Assembly: GCA_017618115.1 (NCBI GenBank)
Contig: JAFZUX010000008.1
Coordinates: forward strand, 62,001-126,000
Direction of reading: 5' to 3'
DNA: 64,000 bases
Source: Bacteroidales bacterium
GTDB lineage: Bacteria; Bacteroidota; Bacteroidia; Bacteroidales; UBA932
Both the position numbers and the translations under genes were made by a program. How positions within the stretch are numbered: the first letter of the stretch is position 1; the number at the start of each line of letters is the position of its first letter. The notes beneath the pieces are model-generated. The model saw only the letters and a program-made list of their open reading frames with translations, was not told the origin of the DNA and ran no database searches. Shown in pieces: positions 2,352-11,891 of this stretch.

Positions 2352-4823
2352 TTATCTTAGTTCAGCGCCGAACTTCTCACGGAAGAGGCGGAGGAGTTTC
2401 TCCATGATAGCGTCTACCGCTTTATCTGTAAGGGTCTTATCCGGATCCTGGAGATGGAAGCTAATGGCGTATTGCTTCTTGCCCTGAGGGATCTTATCAC
2501 CTGTGTAGACATCAAAGAGAACAACGTTGGTGAGGAGTTTCTTCTCTGCCTGATATGCGGCGTTGCGGAGTTCCGCAAAGGAGACTTTGTAGTCCAAAAG
2601 CAGTGCAAGGTCTCTCTTAACCTCTGGGAAACGAGGAAGTTCCGTAAACTTAACGGAGTTCTTCTTAACCTTTGCCAAGAGGACATCCCAGGAGAACTCT
2701 GCAGCGTAAACCTTCTGCTTTATACCAAAGAGTTTGGTAAGACGCTGGCTTACTGTTCCCATAACTACAATCTCCTTACCGTTTGATCGGAGTTTATAGG
2801 AGAGTCCGTCTGAGAAGATATCTGAAGGAGCACCCTCATAATCAAGGTCTTTGAGCTCAATGCCATAGCTCTTGAGAAGAAGTTCTACATATCCCTTGAG
2901 GGAGAAATAATCTCCGCTAACGGTCTTGTTTCTCCAACCCTTAAGTCCCTCTCCGGTAACAAAGAGTGAGAGTTTTGGACGCTCAGTGTAAGCCTTAAGA
3001 GTACTTCTCTCCTCATCCGTTTTCTTGTACTCCGGATTGAAAGAGTAAACGTTACCCATCTCATAGAGTTTAAGCTGGGTAACCTGGCGGTTAATATTGT
3101 ATGCAACAACCTCCAAACCGTTGAACAGCAGGGTCTGACGCATAGCGTTAAGATCTGAACTGAGTGGGTTGCAAATCATAACACAACTGCTCTGCGGATA
3201 GCTCTTCAGGTTCTCATAATATGCGCTCTTGGTAAGAGAGTTGTTCATCATCTCCATAAAGCCGTTGGCCGTAAGAGTCTGGCAGGCACTCTCTCTGATC
3301 TTCTCTGGATCCGGGTGAGCGGTGATGTTAACCGAGCACTTCATACTCTGAGGCAGCGGAACGTTGTTGTATCCGTAAATTCTCAGAACATCCTCCACCA
3401 CGTCACACTCTCTGTAAACGTCTACTCTGTAGGTTGGTACCTTAACTGTGCAGCCTGTCTCCGTACGGTTGACAAACTCCATCTCAAGTGAAGTGAGAAT
3501 CTGCTCAATCTTCTCCTTACCCAGTTTGCAGCCCATAAGTGATTCCATACGGGCATAATCAAGATCAACTACCTTCTTCTCTATAGGTTTGGAAATCACA
3601 TCCTTAACTTCACCTACAATCTCTCCTCCGGCCAGCTCCTGAACCAATAGAGCGGCTCTTCTCAGTGCGTATGGAACCATATTAGGGTCACAGCCTCTCT
3701 CAAAGCGGAATGATGCCTCGGTCTTGAGGGTATGACGCTTGGATGTCTTTCTTACCAGAACAGGGTTAAAGTACGCACTCTCAAGGAATACGGAGGTTGT
3801 GGAGTCACTTACTCCGCTCTCCTGTCCGCCGAATACTCCGGCAATGCACATTGGCTCACTCTCGTTGCAAATCATAAGATCTGTTGCGGCAAGTTCTCTT
3901 TCAACACCGTCCAAAGTGGTGAACTTGGTTCCCTCCTTGCAGAAATCCACAACAATCTTGTTGCCCTTAATCTTCTCAACGTCAAAAGCGTGGAGAGGAT
4001 TACCGGTCTCAATAAGAATGAAGTTGGTAATATCTACAATGTTGTTAATAGGACGGAATCCGACGGAGAGAAGTTTTTTCTTCATCCACTCCGGAGACTC
4101 CTTTACCTTTACTCCCTTAATAGTAACTCCGCTGTAACGAGGCGCTCCGTCAGGCTGATTTACAACAACATCCACAGCCTCTGCGGAAGGCTTGCCCTCC
4201 TTGAATGCCTCTACTGAAGGAGTTGTAAGTTCTCCACCCAGGTTGTTCAGTTTGAGCCAGGCGGATAAATCTCTTGCAACGCCGATAAATGAAGCAGCGT
4301 CTATTCTGTTAGGTGTCAAGCCAATAGTGTAAACAGTATCACACTTTAGGTTGAAGTAATCCTTTGCCGGTGTTCCAACTTTTGTCTCAGATGGAAGCAC
4401 CATAATGCCAGCGTGGTCCGTTCCAACTCCCAACTCATCCTCTGCGCAAAGCATTCCGAATGACTCAACTCCGCGGATTTTAGATCTCTTAATCTTTACA
4501 TCCTCTCCTCCAATTACAAGTTTAGTATTGAGGGTGGCCAACATAACCTTCTGACCTTTAGCAACATTAGGAGCACCGCACACTACCTGCAGCAGTTCCC
4601 CCTCTCCTGTGTTAACCTTTGTAACGTGGAGGTGGTCTGAGTTGGGATGAGGCTCGCACTCTACAACCTCAGCAACAATAACTCCGGCCAATCCGCCGGG
4701 GATCTCCTCTACAACATCCTGATGCTCAACCTCCAGGCCTATGTTAGTTAAAGCGGAAGCAACCTCGTCCGGATTGAGGTCAAACTTCACATACTCTTTT
4801 AGCCAATTGTAAGAAATATCCAT
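2352..4823 (-). CDS. pheT: Phenylalanyl-tRNA synthetase beta subunit
   Basis: The protein has 823 residues, a normal length for the beta chain. It joins PheS in an alpha2-beta2 enzyme that charges tRNA-Phe. Visible parts in order: MDISYNWLKEYV start, tRNA-binding OB-fold (residues about 40-155), B3/B4 editing domain, B5 domain, and a C-terminal ferredoxin-like anticodon-binding domain starting at FTELPRFPEVKRDLALLL. pheS is not in this window, so the two subunits are encoded apart, as in many Bacteroidota. The gene follows ftsY by 11 bp and is probably read from the ftsY promoter. Confidence 0.97.
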   Translation of the reverse strand: MDISYNWLKEYVKFDLNPDEVASALTNIGLEVEHQDVVEEIPGGLAGVIVAEVVECEPHPNSDHLHVTKVNTGEGELLQVVCGAPNVAKGQKVMLATLNTKLVIGGEDVKIKRSKIRGVESFGMLCAEDELGVGTDHAGIMVLPSETKVGTPAKDYFNLKCDTVYTIGLTPNRIDAASFIGVARDLSAWLKLNNLGGELTTPSVEAFKEGKPSAEAVDVVVNQPDGAPRYSGVTIKGVKVKESPEWMKKKLLSVGFRPINNIVDITNFILIETGNPLHAFDVEKIKGNKIVVDFCKEGTKFTTLDGVERELAATDLMICNESEPMCIAGVFGGQESGVSDSTTSVFLESAYFNPVLVRKTSKRHTLKTEASFRFERGCDPNMVPYALRRAALLVQELAGGEIVGEVKDVISKPIEKKVVDLDYARMESLMGCKLGKEKIEQILTSLEMEFVNRTETGCTVKVPTYRVDVYRECDVVEDVLRIYGYNNVPLPQSMKCSVNITAHPDPEKIRESACQTLTANGFMEMMNNSLTKSAYYENLKSYPQSSCVMICNPLSSDLNAMRQTLLFNGLEVVAYNINRQVTQLKLYEMGNVYSFNPEYKKTDEERSTLKAYTERPKLSLFVTGEGLKGWRNKTVSGDYFSLKGYVELLLKSYGIELKDLDYEGAPSDIFSDGLSYKLRSNGKEIVVMGTVSQRLTKLFGIKQKVYAAEFSWDVLLAKVKKNSVKFTELPRFPEVKRDLALLLDYKVSFAELRNAAYQAEKKLLTNVVLFDVYTGDKIPQGKKQYAISFHLQDPDKTLTDKAVDAIMEKLLRLFREKFGAELR

Positions 4824-7982: not shown

Positions 7983-8327
7983 TTATTTAAGAGATTTTAC
8001 AACCTGCTCAAAAGCCTGAGGATTGTTCATTGCAAGATCTGCAAGAACCTTGCGGTTCAAAGAGATATCGCTCTTTGAAAGCTTTCCGATGAACTGTGAG
8101 TAGTTCATTCCGTAAGCTCTTACTGCAGCGTTGATTCTCTGAATCCAAAGAACTCTGTAGCTCTTCTTCTTGTCTTTACGATCATTGTAGGCATGAGTCC
8201 ATCCTTTCTCCAGGGTGTTTTTTGCTACGGTGTAGACATTTGCCCTTGCATGGAAGTTGCCTTTGGTCTGCTTTAAAATTTTCTTGCGGCGTGCTCTTGA
8301 CGCAACAGAATTTACACTTCTTGGCAT
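7983..8327 (-). CDS. rplT: 50S ribosomal protein L20
   Basis: The protein has 114 residues. [20 protein letters not shown] is the disordered RNA-binding start of L20, followed by the helical domain that reads [20 protein letters not shown] near the end. It assembles early on 23S rRNA. In other bacteria L20 also represses its own operon by binding a leader RNA. Here an 80-nt structured gap lies directly in front of it (see 8328-8407). Confidence 0.98.
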
Positions 8328-8407
8328 AATTTTAATGTTTTGGAAGCCAGCGCTCTTCTCCTTAAGAGACTTTCTCTGCTGGACATCCGGTTAATAAATA
8401 AGTTAAC
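8328..8407 (-). promoter_or_regulatory. Structured rpmI-rplT spacer, possible L20 binding site
   Basis: This 80-nt gap is unusually long for this operon, where the rpmI-infC and lepB-rplT gaps are 4 and 14 nt. In the mRNA CCAGC (8382-8378) pairs with GCTGG (8351-8347), enclosing an inner hairpin AGAGA-aag-TCTCT (8377-8365). L20 is known in E. coli and Bacillus to bind structured leaders. Whether this one mimics the 23S site was not tested. Confidence 0.45.
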
Positions 8408-8602
8408 TTAAGAGAGGATCAACTCTTTAACTCTCTTCTCATCACTGCTTGCAATGACTCCTGAGTATGCAAGATTTCTCTTACGCTTAGTAGTCTTCTT
8501 AGTCAGAATGTGACTGTGGTAAGCATGATGTCTTTTTACTTTACCCGAGCCAGTAAGCTCAAAGCGCTTTTTGGCACTGGACTTGGTCTTTAATTTTGGC
8601 AT
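8408..8602 (-). CDS. rpmI: 50S ribosomal protein L35
   Basis: The protein has 64 residues. [14 protein letters not shown] at the start and the [14 protein letters not shown] segment are diagnostic for L35. A start nine codons further upstream is open but lacks homology and would overlap infC; the ATG at 8602 gives the canonical N-terminus and a 4-bp gap to infC. It belongs to the infC-rpmI-rplT set conserved across bacteria. Confidence 0.97.
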
Positions 8603-8606
8603 ATCT

Positions 8607-9251
8607 TTACTTTTTTTTAATAGGTGCAATTATCATACTCATCCTCTTGCCCTCAAGCAGAGGCATTTTCTCCGCCTTTCCAAACTCCTCAAGTTCAACA
8701 GCAAAGCGCAGTAACAACTTTTCTCCTTGCTCTGAGAACAAGATTGAGCGTCCTTTGAAATATACAAAAGCCTTAACCTTGTTACCCTCCTTGAGGAAGT
8801 TTTTGGCGTGGTTCAACTTAAACTGGAAGTCATGCTCATCCGTGTTAGGACCAAAACGCAACTCCTTAATCTCTGTTTTTGCTGCGTTGGCCTTCATCTC
8901 CTTGGCCTTCTTTTTCTGCTGATACAGATACTTTTGGTAATCTATAATCTTGCAGACAGGAGGTTCCGCATTAGGTGCAATCTCAACTAAGTCAAGCTCC
9001 ATCTCCTGAGCCATCTTCAAAGCCTGTGCAATTGGATAAATCTTCTGCTCAGGCACATTGTCTCCCACTACCCTAACCTCGGGTACTCTGATTTGCTCAT
9101 TTACTCTAGGCCCCTCATCTTCATCCTTACGGAACTTGTTATTTGGACCCTTAAAACCCGGATTGGTGGCATTTGCGTTGCCGGGTTTGTTAGCTTGGTT
9201 GCCTCCCTGGGGTTTATAAAAACCACCTGGACGCGGTTTGAATGTTGCGAT
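8607..9251 (-). CDS. infC: Translation initiation factor IF-3 with ATC start and N-terminal extension
   Basis: The frame gives 214 residues from an ATC codon at 9251-9249. The only upstream in-frame limit is a stop two codons earlier. A perfect AGGAGG lies 7 nt before this ATC, the best ribosome site in the window. AUC/AUU starts on infC are known to allow IF3 to repress its own translation. The core starts at [14 protein letters not shown] (residues 50-63), followed by the N-domain, a lysine-rich linker and the C-domain ending MIIAPIKKK. Residues 1-49 are an extension rich in G, N, P and K, then an acidic patch. A GTG start at residue 62 would remove the conserved start of IF3 and is rejected. 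Confidence 0.93.
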
Positions 9252-9258
9252 AAACTAT

Positions 9259-9282: not shown

Positions 9283-11244
9283 TTAATTTGCAGGAGTTAC
9301 CTGATCTCCCAGTTCCTCCTTAGTCTTTTTCTCTATAAGTTGAGCAAACTCCTCAACCTTCATAACACCAAGATTTACACCACCTTGCTGTCTTACAGCC
9401 ACGCTCTCGGTTTCCATTTCCTTCTCTCCTACAACCAACAGATAAGGCATTTTCTTGAGCTCGTTTTCTCTAATACGCTTACCTATTGTCTCGTTGCGGT
9501 CGTCAATGGAGGCGCGAATTTCGCAATTTTTTAGTGAATTGCAAACTTTTTTAGCAAAATCCACATATTTCTCTCCAACCGGAAGGACAACGCACTGGTC
9601 CGGAGTGAGCCACAAAGGAAGGTTTCCTGCGGTGTGCTCCAGAAGAACGGCTACGAATCTCTCCATGGAACCGAACGGTGCACGGTGTATCATGATCGGG
9701 CGATGTTTCTGATTATCAGCGCCTGTGTACTCCAAGCCAAACCTCTCCGGGAGGTTGTAGTCTACCTGGATGGTACCAAGCTGCCACTGACGGCCGATAG
9801 CATCCTTAACCATAAAGTCCAGTTTAGGGCCGTAGAAGGCTGCCTCGCCGTACTCTATCTTGGTCTTAAGTCCCTTCTCCTGAGCGGATTCAATGATTGC
9901 CTGCTCCGCCTTCTCCCAGTTCTCCTCACTCCCGATGTATTTAGAGCGATCTACCTTATCGCGGAGAGAAACCTGAGCGGTATACTGGTCAAACTTCAGA
10001 GTCTTAAAGATATAGAGCACAATGTCAATAACCTTGCAGAACTCCTCCTTTAACTGATCCGGTCTTACAAAGAGGTGGGCGTCATCCTGGGTAAAACCGC
10101 GGACTCTTGTAAGTCCGTGAAGCTCACCGCTCTGCTCGTATCTGTAAACCGTTCCGAACTCTGCAAAACGGAGCGGAAGGTCTTTATATGAACGAGGTTT
10201 TGTCTTGTAAATCTCACAGTGGTGAGGGCAGTTCATAGGCTTAAGCAAGAACTCCTCTCCCTCCTGCGGAGTGGTGATAGGACGGAATGAATCCTTGCCG
10301 TATTTTGCCCAGTGTCCGCTGGTTACATAGAGTTCCTTCTGTCCTATATGAGGGGTAATTACCGGCAGATAGCCGTAATCACTCTGAACCTTGCGCAAGA
10401 AATTCTCAAGACGGGTTCTCAGGGCCGCTCCTCTTGGAAGCCACAGAGGCAGACCTGCTCCCACCTTCTGGCTGAATGCAAAGAGTTCCAGCTCTTTACC
10501 CAGCTTTCTGTGGTCTCTCTTCTTTGCCTCTTCCAGCACTTTCAGGTACTCGTCCAGCATACTCTTCTTAGGGAAGGTTATACCGTATATTCTTGTAAGC
10601 TGTTTGCGTTTCTCATCTCCCCTCCAGTATGCGCCTGCAATTGAGGTAAGCTTAATTGCCTTAATTACAGAGGTTGACATAATGTGAGGACCACGGCACA
10701 AATCTGTGAAGTTACCGTTTGTATAGAAGGAGATTGAACCGTCTTTAAGCTCTCCGATGAGCTCGGTCTTGTACTCGTCTCCCTTCTTTGTAAAGTATGC
10801 AAGAGCCTCATCTTTAGGAACTTCTCTGCGAACATACTCCTCGCCTGTTCGTGCAAGTTCCAACATTTTGTCTTCCACCTTCTTAAGATCAGCCTCGGTG
10901 AGGGTCTTGTCTCCCAGGTCTACGTCATAGTAGAAACCGTTCTCAATGGCCGGTCCTATACCGAACTTAATACCCGGATAGATAGCCTCAAGTGCCTCAG
11001 CCATAAGGTGTGAGGATGAGTGCCAGAAGGCCTTTTTGCCCTCATCGTCATCCCACTTGTGAAGACGAATATTTGCATCAGTTTCAATTGGTGTACGAAG
11101 GTCACAGACCTGATCGTTTACAGAGACAGACAACACCTCTGCGGCAAGACGGGGACTGATGCTCTCTGCAATCTGATAACCCGTTACGCCTTTTTCAAAA
11201 TCTTTTACACTTCCGTCCGGAAATGTAATCTTAATAATACTCAT
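9283..11244 (-). CDS. thrS: Threonyl-tRNA synthetase
   Basis: The protein has 653 residues. It charges tRNA-Thr and edits Ser-tRNA-Thr. Domains in order: TGS (about 1-62), the HxxxH / C editing domain (about 63-240, with [10 protein letters not shown]), class II core with [10 protein letters not shown] (zinc-binding Cys) and [12 protein letters not shown] (motif 2), and the anticodon-binding domain from about residue 540. It heads the thrS-infC-rpmI-rplT-lepB unit. Its leader carries a striking hairpin that resembles the anticodon arm of tRNA-Thr (11271-11291), which suggests that ThrRS represses its own translation. Confidence 0.98.
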
Positions 11245-11270
11245 AAAACTTTATTTTATTGTTTTCTATA

Positions 11271-11291
11271 GGATACCATACGGCGGTATCC
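11271..11291 (-). promoter_or_regulatory. thrS leader hairpin resembling a tRNA-Thr anticodon arm
   Basis: In the thrS mRNA GGATACC (11291-11285) and GGTATCC (11277-11271) form a perfect 7-bp stem closing a 7-nt loop GCCGTAT. If the loop is numbered 32-38 as in tRNA, positions 34-36 read CGU, a threonine anticodon, and position 37 is A. The hairpin ends 26 nt before the ATG. In E. coli the thrS operator uses a similar mimic to let ThrRS repress its own translation. The mimic reading here is inference from sequence. Confidence 0.65.
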
Positions 11292-11307
11292 ACCTTTCAA
11301 AGGCCTG

Positions 11308-11315
11308 CAAATCTA
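11308..11315 (-). promoter_or_regulatory. thrS operon -7 element
   Basis: The minus strand reads TAGATTTG, matching TAnnTTTG. The expected start gives a leader of about 58 nt that contains the anticodon-arm-like hairpin. It stands back to back with the DUF4199 promoter, separated by 9 bp. Confidence 0.65.
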
Positions 11316-11324
11316 CAAATTTTA

Positions 11325-11332
11325 TATCTTTG
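11325..11332 (+). promoter_or_regulatory. -7 element of the DUF4199 / glycosyltransferase operon
   Basis: TATCTTTG matches TAnnTTTG and lies 29 bp before the ATG at 11361. Confidence 0.7.
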
Positions 11333-11360
11333 CACAAAACAATCCTTAAAAGGAAATACT

Positions 11361-11891
11361 ATGGAGAATAATGTAAAATCGGTATCAAAGTGGAACCGTG
11401 CCGCAGTAGAAGGCGTTAAACTGGCTATTATCAGTATAGTATTGATGCTGGCAGCAGGACTTACTCAATCTAAAGGTTTAGGCACTATTATTTGGATAGT
11501 TAAACTGGCAGCAACCATTACCTTCCTCTGGTGGGCAATGAAGAGATATTCAGTTGCAAATGCAGCCGTTATGGGACAGACCACATACGCAGAATCTTTC
11601 ACATTCGGATTCATAACCTCATTCCTCTCTTCAATTGTTCTGGCTGTTTACACATACGTTAACTGCCTCTTTATCAATCCGGATCAGTTGCAGCTGGCTA
11701 AAGACGCCTATATGACTCAATTAGAGAGCAGGCCGGAAATTTCTATGGAGATGATAGAGAAGGTATTTGATAATCTGGAAATTATCTCCACCTTCGGCGT
11801 ACTTATCTTCTACACCATCTGGGGTCTGATTATCTCTGCAATACTTGCAGGCTCAACCAAGGTACTTCCGGAAGGATACAATAACAACTAA
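11361..11891 (+). CDS. DUF4199 family membrane protein
   Basis: The ATG at 11361 gives 176 residues; earlier in-frame codons precede the promoter and are not used. Four hydrophobic segments are visible (about residues 18-36, 41-60, 75-100 and 148-170), with a helical hydrophilic stretch between the third and fourth (DPDQ/AKDAY region). This is the DUF4199 family, whose members in Bacteroidota commonly lie next to a GT2 glycosyltransferase. No biochemical role is known to me. The next gene starts 2 bp after its stop, so the two are surely cotranscribed, and a joint role in envelope glycan or lipid modification is plausible. Confidence 0.85.
   Translation: MENNVKSVSKWNRAAVEGVKLAIISIVLMLAAGLTQSKGLGTIIWIVKLAATITFLWWAMKRYSVANAAVMGQTTYAESFTFGFITSFLSSIVLAVYTYVNCLFINPDQLQLAKDAYMTQLESRPEISMEMIEKVFDNLEIISTFGVLIFYTIWGLIISAILAGSTKVLPEGYNNN

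Follow-up and report, generated by a model that had tools for sequence, protein, structure and literature searches.

In Escherichia coli, threonyl-tRNA synthetase (ThrRS) binds two anticodon-like arms in its mRNA leader and prevents binding of the 30S subunit (PMC11088916, PMC9976931, PMC3858243). In the reviews consulted, E. coli thrS is the bacterial example of synthetase autoregulation by an anticodon mimic (PMC11088916, PMC9976931). These sources also describe how methionine-type anticodon-like bases in the leader bring it under the control of MetRS (PMC11088916, PMC9976931), and how the operator is laid out in four domains that include a ribosome-binding domain and a linker (PMC11088916). 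Synthetases acting on anticodon-like mRNA elements are likewise described for yeast HisRS, AspRS and ThrRS/RPC10 mRNA (PMC6542539, PMC9956033), although these cases are eukaryotic and involve other synthetases or targets rather than a bacterial leader.

Here we describe a thrS leader from a 64-kb stretch of a Bacteroidales genome (hereafter the window; its assembly comprises 1.85 Mb in 26 contigs) that carries one hairpin with the threonine anticodon in its loop. In many Firmicutes, synthetase genes including thrS are controlled by T-box leaders, which bind tRNA through a codon-like specifier, whereas the window RNA displays an anticodon. Searches with Rfam 15, T-box included, at the gathering score gave no matches in the window and only three in 20 thrS loci, none of them on the thrS hairpin (Bacteroidales-1 in L071, tRNA in L034 and the DUF805 RNA in L207). 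The last of these matches, at 3945-4022 on the minus strand, is borderline at 51.7 bits against a cut-off of 51.1. No report of a Bacteroidota thrS leader was found by title or start of abstract in the open-licence literature, among the matches listed, and an earlier report elsewhere is possible. The terms thrS, threonyl and tRNA synthetase are absent from the main texts of three papers on motif discovery and one on a flavobacterial transcriptome (PMC8040213, PMC2864571, PMC7247131, PMC9723704).

Results

The thrS Leader of the Window Displays a Threonine Anticodon

The window carries thrS, infC, rpmI and rplT in the same order as E. coli (Table 1), with rpmI (L35) named from sequence alone. 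Among solved structures, the top matches of the encoded synthetase are ThrRS chains, including 1qf6, which we take to be the E. coli enzyme. No sigma-70-type promoter site was found in a search for one at thrS. Promoter elements for thrS and for the divergent DUF4199 gene were assigned by TAnnTTTG, presumably the promoter consensus in this organism. Because TAGATTTG fits this consensus and has TTTG 19 nt upstream of it (11338-11335, minus strand), the leader of about 58 nt proposed in the first-pass annotation appears reasonable. The interval between hairpin and AUG is A/U-rich, with no Shine-Dalgarno sequence recognizable by eye, and no terminator-like site is present in 11200-11400.

Table 1. 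Positions of the thrS leader hairpin and of neighbouring features in the window.
Feature	Position	Strand	Basis or remark
Anticodon-arm-like hairpin in the thrS leader	11271..11291	-	direct reading, fold, paired changes in the genus
5' arm of the hairpin	11291-11285	-	
Loop of the hairpin (G32 C33 C34 G35 U36 A37 U38)	11278..11284	-	tRNA numbering
3' arm of the hairpin	11277-11271	-	
Predicted thrS 5' leader, ~58 nt	11245..11302	-	putative promoter
TAGATTTG, presumed -7 element (TAnnTTTG) of the thrS promoter	11308..11315	-	read from sequence; consensus presumed
TATCTTTG, presumed DUF4199 promoter element	11325-11332		beyond the hairpin; consensus presumed
thrS, threonyl-tRNA synthetase	9283..11244	-	TGS, SAD, class II core and HGTP anticodon-binding domains
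infC (IF-3), rpmI (L35), rplT (L20), downstream of thrS	7983..9254	-	
Divergent DUF4199 gene	11361..11891	+	

The first-pass annotation had described a perfect 7-bp stem with a 7-nt loop that places CGU at positions 34-36 and A at 37, and this is what the minus strand reads: GGATACC-GCCGTAT-GGTATCC, with all seven pairs formed. C34-G35-U36 is a threonine anticodon, A37 follows it as in tRNA-Thr, and 26 nt separate the hairpin from the thrS ATG at 11244. When a 70-nt segment is folded with ViennaRNA the stem is paired, at -12 kcal/mol, and the program also joins G32 to U38, leaving a loop of 5 nt. The fold energy is ordinary for a leader of this composition (z -1.7; 12 of 200 shuffles fold equally well). 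When the 58-nt leader was shuffled 20,000 times with its dinucleotides preserved, a perfect hairpin of this shape with any loop arose 85 times, and one with GUA at 35-37 arose 5 times. The window holds four perfect palindromes of the same shape, and only that of thrS has GUA at 35-37 on either strand. Fold energy alone does not discriminate here; it is conservation in relatives, described below, that confirms the hairpin with its threonine anticodon loop as real.

The E. coli operator offers the closest comparison. Like its domains II and IV, the window element is a leader hairpin that presents a threonine anticodon shortly before the initiation region (the E. coli hairpin GUGAUC-UUUCGUGUG-GGUCAC ends 21 nt before the AUG). 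The E. coli leader is otherwise different, as had been noted at the outset: its two-arm, four-domain layout is missing from the window, which has one arm and no second upstream domain, and the base that follows CGU, A37 in the window, is G in domain II of E. coli. Compared by eye, the stems look unrelated; the hairpins are short, and hairpin presence is scattered on the Bacteroidota ThrRS tree. Because the window lacks the second arm and the four-domain layout, we do not class its hairpin as the same element as the E. coli operator.

Two further observations were made around this gene. The infC frame runs from stop to stop without an ATG, and an AUC at 9251 (9251-9249, minus strand) that follows GGAGG is a possible start. 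E. coli infC has an unusual AUU start, and by analogy IF-3 autoregulation through the start codon may also be present at the window infC. Separately, a phage search for ThrRS gave nothing of use to the leader question; it returned a protein 67.6% identical to that of the window in MT837394.1 (773-2707), a 7-kb record labelled Bacteriophage sp. that is possibly a bacterial contig misfiled as phage.

The Stem Changes in Pairs and the Loop Keeps G35-U36-A37

A thrS match was found in all 39 genomes of the genus that were searched (partial in G036), and the start region was readable in 38. A clear hairpin is present in 27 of these 38 leaders, the other 11 including L105, whose weak hairpin was scored as lacking. 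When genomes are grouped by ThrRS identity (not by tree), the hairpin occurs in 20 of 21 leaders of the near group and in 7 of 17 of the more distant group. Near-group hairpins occupy the same place on differing stems, namely GGATACC/GGTATCC, CAAGTGC/GCACTTG, GTGCC/GGCAC and CCGGTGCC/GGCAGCGG, with CCGGTGTC/GACAGCGG as a paired variant. The distant group has a stem of its own, GCGUGU/GCACGC, of which one leader carries the doubly changed variant GCACGU/GCGUGC.

Pairing was assessed in alignment A1, built without reference to structure from 18 of the 21 near-group leaders (L088 and L089 are identical to L087, and L097 has no hairpin); alignment A2 holds the seven second-group leaders that have one. 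Because leaders without the hairpin were left out, pair counts from these alignments, and from alignment A4 below, describe carriers only. Stem covariation, proposed as a check by the first-pass annotation, is evident in A1: both sides have changed in six of eight pairs, with 24 such cells compared to 7.0 in column shuffles. None of 500 shuffles matched the observed pairing or covariation score, and all slid registers were worse. The number of further pair types (8, against 11.2 in shuffles) was below all 500 shuffles, and in 11 of the 18 rows a non-standard pair closes the loop.

While both arms change, G35, U36 and A37 are invariant columns in A1 (n=18). The expectation that relatives would keep both the hairpin and CGU held in the near group for the hairpin and for G35-U36-A37, but not for CGU as a whole: base 34 varies across the genus, with C in L001 and L086, A in L084 and L085, and U or G elsewhere, so that every threonine anticodon occurs. 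In a scan of 30 of the 41 matched tRNA loci, the tRNA-Thr loops of the genome read UU-NGU-AA with N being U, G or C, and the AGU mimics therefore copy no tRNA-Thr in that set. For this reason base 34 looks free, as it should be if recognition involves G35 and U36 alone. A free base 34 together with a kept G35-U36-A37 fits a mimic of the threonine anticodon and not a fixed binding sequence.

The Hairpin Recurs Across Bacteroidota with a Patchy Distribution

We collected 345 thrS loci, of which 341 had a usable start (L002, L003, L064 and L076 were excluded) and 310 remained after removal of similar leaders. The 100 nt before each start were scanned for hairpins with loops of 7-9 nt, and the triplet at 35-37 was recorded, with a strict cut at a stem score of at least 15. 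At some Sphingobacteriaceae-type loci the survey start lay several nucleotides upstream of the true start, which was corrected in later scans. GUA was found at 35-37 in 46 of the 310 leaders, compared to 15 for the next triplet, a mean of 2.9 for the others, and a mean of 1.3 (maximum 3) in 20 sets of shuffled leaders. The reverse strand gave GUA twice, and TAC on the same strand was found 0 times against 46 for GUA. The motif is tied to thrS: leaders of other genes at the same loci carry a GUA hairpin in 1 of 212 cases, or in 8 of 274 at a laxer cut (score 12, 125 nt).

The excess holds both within the genus (18 of 28 leaders; 0.7 in shuffles) and outside it (28 of 282; 2.0 in shuffles). The first-pass annotation had entered two reservations, that position 33 is C rather than U and that the stem has 7 bp, and neither is an objection. 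Position 33 varies, being U in 7 of the 18 genus matches, unlike tRNA-Thr, and in 22 of the 28 outside, and stem length ranges from 5 bp upward. In 19 of the 28 outside matches, an additional nucleotide on the 5' side lengthens the loop to 8 nt. With the score set to at least 13, records named Porphyromonas (L036), Muribaculaceae (L071), Odoribacter (L054), Olivibacter (L059) and Sphingobacterium (L072, L077) are included.

The same loop appears on unrelated stems in other families; speaking against the reading, a clear hairpin is missing from ten of the 17 distant genus leaders and, at the strict cut, from most leaders outside. On a FastTree phylogeny of 154 unique ThrRS proteins, hairpin presence requires 15 changes, compared to 27-36 in 200 label shuffles. 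The hairpin is inherited, but with many gains or losses, or with cases missed by the cut, and its distribution across Bacteroidota is patchy.

Additional loci came mostly from families or genera in which the motif had already been seen, and for that reason they speak to conservation within families and not to prevalence. In a Sphingobacteriaceae-type family (f150), the upstream hairpin scores at least 12 in 31 of 36 unique leaders, with U, C or A at base 34. Alignment A4 of this family, which replaced a MAFFT alignment of mixed Sphingobacteriaceae-type leaders (A3) in which some rows were misaligned, covers 23 of 30 loci; L394, L395, L400, L407 and L414 have no clear upstream hairpin, and in L404 and L418 it lies farther upstream. 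Both sides have changed in five of seven upstream pairs, and both helices of the family together show 16 doubly changed cells against 5.1 in shuffles; the count of further pair types was not significant (87 of 500).

All nine unique leaders of f147 have the hairpin, with CCUGC/GCAGG swapped for CCUAU/AUAGG, as do all seven leaders fetched for f121 (L337, L429-L434), on several differing stems that are likewise doubly changed. It is kept on similar stems in f97 (L261, L271, L426), f106 (L229, L252, L427) and f99 (L292, L428, and L054 via a contig shared with G404). Among eight f132 leaders, four have GUA, three have UGU with U37 (L213, L214, L435) and one has none. Because of these U37 leaders, and of L072, L077 and L197 in the start-codon hairpin described below, A37 is not absolute.

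Several further leaders have structures of their own. Seven of Alistipes/Rikenellaceae type (L022, L026, L028, L033, L039, L044, L047), not counted as matches, share a larger fold with a CUCGUAAUU segment, like UCCGUCUCGUAAUUGUGGA (CUCGUUAUU in L039 and L047), which is perhaps a more elaborate threonine anticodon mimic. Four of Paludibacter type (L034, L048, L053, L056) share ACC-AUUUGUAA-GGU within the last ~30 nt before thrS, a tRNA-Thr-like loop whose stem is below the strict cut in length. In L058, a long hairpin precedes thrS, with UGUA inside it or adjacent to it.

A Second Hairpin Encloses the Start Codon in One Family

The leaders of f150 also carry a second hairpin, typically AAUCAU-AGUUGUAG-AUGAUU, whose 3' arm contains the start codon. 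Its loop has NGUA in 33 of 36 leaders and NGU with U37 in the other three (L072, L077, L197), and 29 of the 36 carry GUA hairpins at both positions. The compact, single-hairpin form proposed from the window therefore describes that leader but not this family, in which there are two mimics, one of them over the start codon. The E. coli operator likewise has two anticodon-like arms, although in f150 the AUG is itself part of the second. In the loop of this second hairpin, base 34 is either U or C and the length is 7 or 8, whereas the stem is nearly constant and no pair in A4 has changed on both sides. Such constancy is expected because one arm encodes the start, and we make no claim of covariation for this stem.

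A GUA hairpin of this kind occurs at 1 of 274 starts of other genes. A pooled count had suggested that the start-codon form is phylum-wide, but this was gone once f150 was set apart: among 299 leaders outside the family GUA occurs in 9, compared to 18 for AAA and 9 for TAA, so that there is no enrichment overall. One match within the genus of the window, L130, has weak, chance-like pairing. In g15, a genus in the family of the window, 7 of 16 leaders (L113-L116, L138, L419, L421) place AUCA-[A/G]UUGUAA-UGAU, or a sequence close to it, over the AUG, L423 has an upstream hairpin and eight scored for neither form. With stems this short (4-6 bp), the g15 case is no more than suggestive of a start-codon mimic. 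The second-position hairpin is therefore claimed for f150, and is rare outside that family.

Discussion

Comparative sequence data support reading the thrS leader of the window as a predicted mimic of the threonine anticodon. It is very probable, in our assessment, that ThrRS binds this anticodon-arm mimic in its own leader and blocks initiation on thrS mRNA. This mechanism is further favoured by the anticodon-binding domain of ThrRS and by the precedent in E. coli, and the case for it rests on the upstream hairpin and not on the start-codon form. The leader RNA would fold into a hairpin imitating the anticodon arm of tRNA-Thr, and ThrRS that is free of tRNA-Thr would bind it through the C-terminal anticodon-binding domain and recognize G35 and U36. 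Once bound, the enzyme would cover the stretch from hairpin to AUG on which ribosomes land, and initiation would stop. ThrRS would in this way repress its own translation, and rising free tRNA-Thr would release the enzyme. Where the hairpin spans the start codon, binding by ThrRS would directly keep the AUG paired within a stem. We infer the identity of the ligand, repression by binding and competition by tRNA-Thr from the features described above.

Other explanations were weighed against the same data. The palindrome is perfect and lies upstream of both divergent genes, and could thus be a DNA operator for a transcription factor acting between thrS and the DUF4199 gene. However, close relatives have rewritten the arms and kept the loop, which is the reverse of what is expected of a protein-bound palindrome, and the loop signal is strand-specific. 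This explanation was rejected after a whole-genome palindrome search, in which the exact palindrome occurred once in the genome and, with at most two mismatches, at five sites including thrS, compared to four for a reversed control; we regard it as highly unlikely. Equally little weight attaches to an element that works without any protein. A hairpin near the predicted 5' end could stabilize the message, since stems of such size can protect mRNA, or could serve in attenuation. Yet a stability element would not hold three loop bases while both arms change, and an attenuator is opposed by the missing terminator-like site noted above.

The kept GUA includes U36-A37, the core of the t6A site, and the NGUA loop could thus be read by some other tRNA-reading protein, such as the enzymes of t6A37 synthesis, or by an RNA-binding protein other than ThrRS. 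The tRNAs with t6A include those for Ile, Lys, Asn, Met, Arg and Ser, so G35 would not be needed by these enzymes, whereas it is retained here; moreover, the hairpin is tied to thrS, and leaders with U37 still keep NGU. A reader of this kind is improbable, if slightly less so than the two preceding possibilities. That the hairpin arose by chance might be argued from its ordinary fold energy in the window and from the lack of a similar hairpin, at the strict cut, in most thrS leaders outside the genus. Paired changes, loop conservation and the survey excess in thrS leaders all contradict this, and we give chance almost no credence.

Returning to ThrRS as the probable reader of the hairpin, we lean towards a broader scenario in which Bacteroidota evolved a ThrRS operator of their own, probably several times: a free-standing threonine anticodon arm placed anywhere from ~60 nt upstream to over the start codon, with two arms in the Sphingobacteriaceae-type family. 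If this is true, a ThrRS dimer could grip both arms of the f150 leaders and lock the AUG inside a stem, repression would operate without a Shine-Dalgarno site, and the phylum would hold a natural series of anticodon mimics gained, moved and lost.

The logic of E. coli thrS probably recurs in a distant phylum, in a form of ~21 nt that is small enough for tests with synthetic RNA, and for which nature offers variants that differ in bases 33, 34 and 37, in the length of the loop and in where the hairpin lies. The leader of an operon that encodes ThrRS, IF-3 and ribosomal proteins also gains a likely function. The finding raises the testable question of whether anticodon mimics recur because the rules of tRNA identity supply a regulator ready-made.
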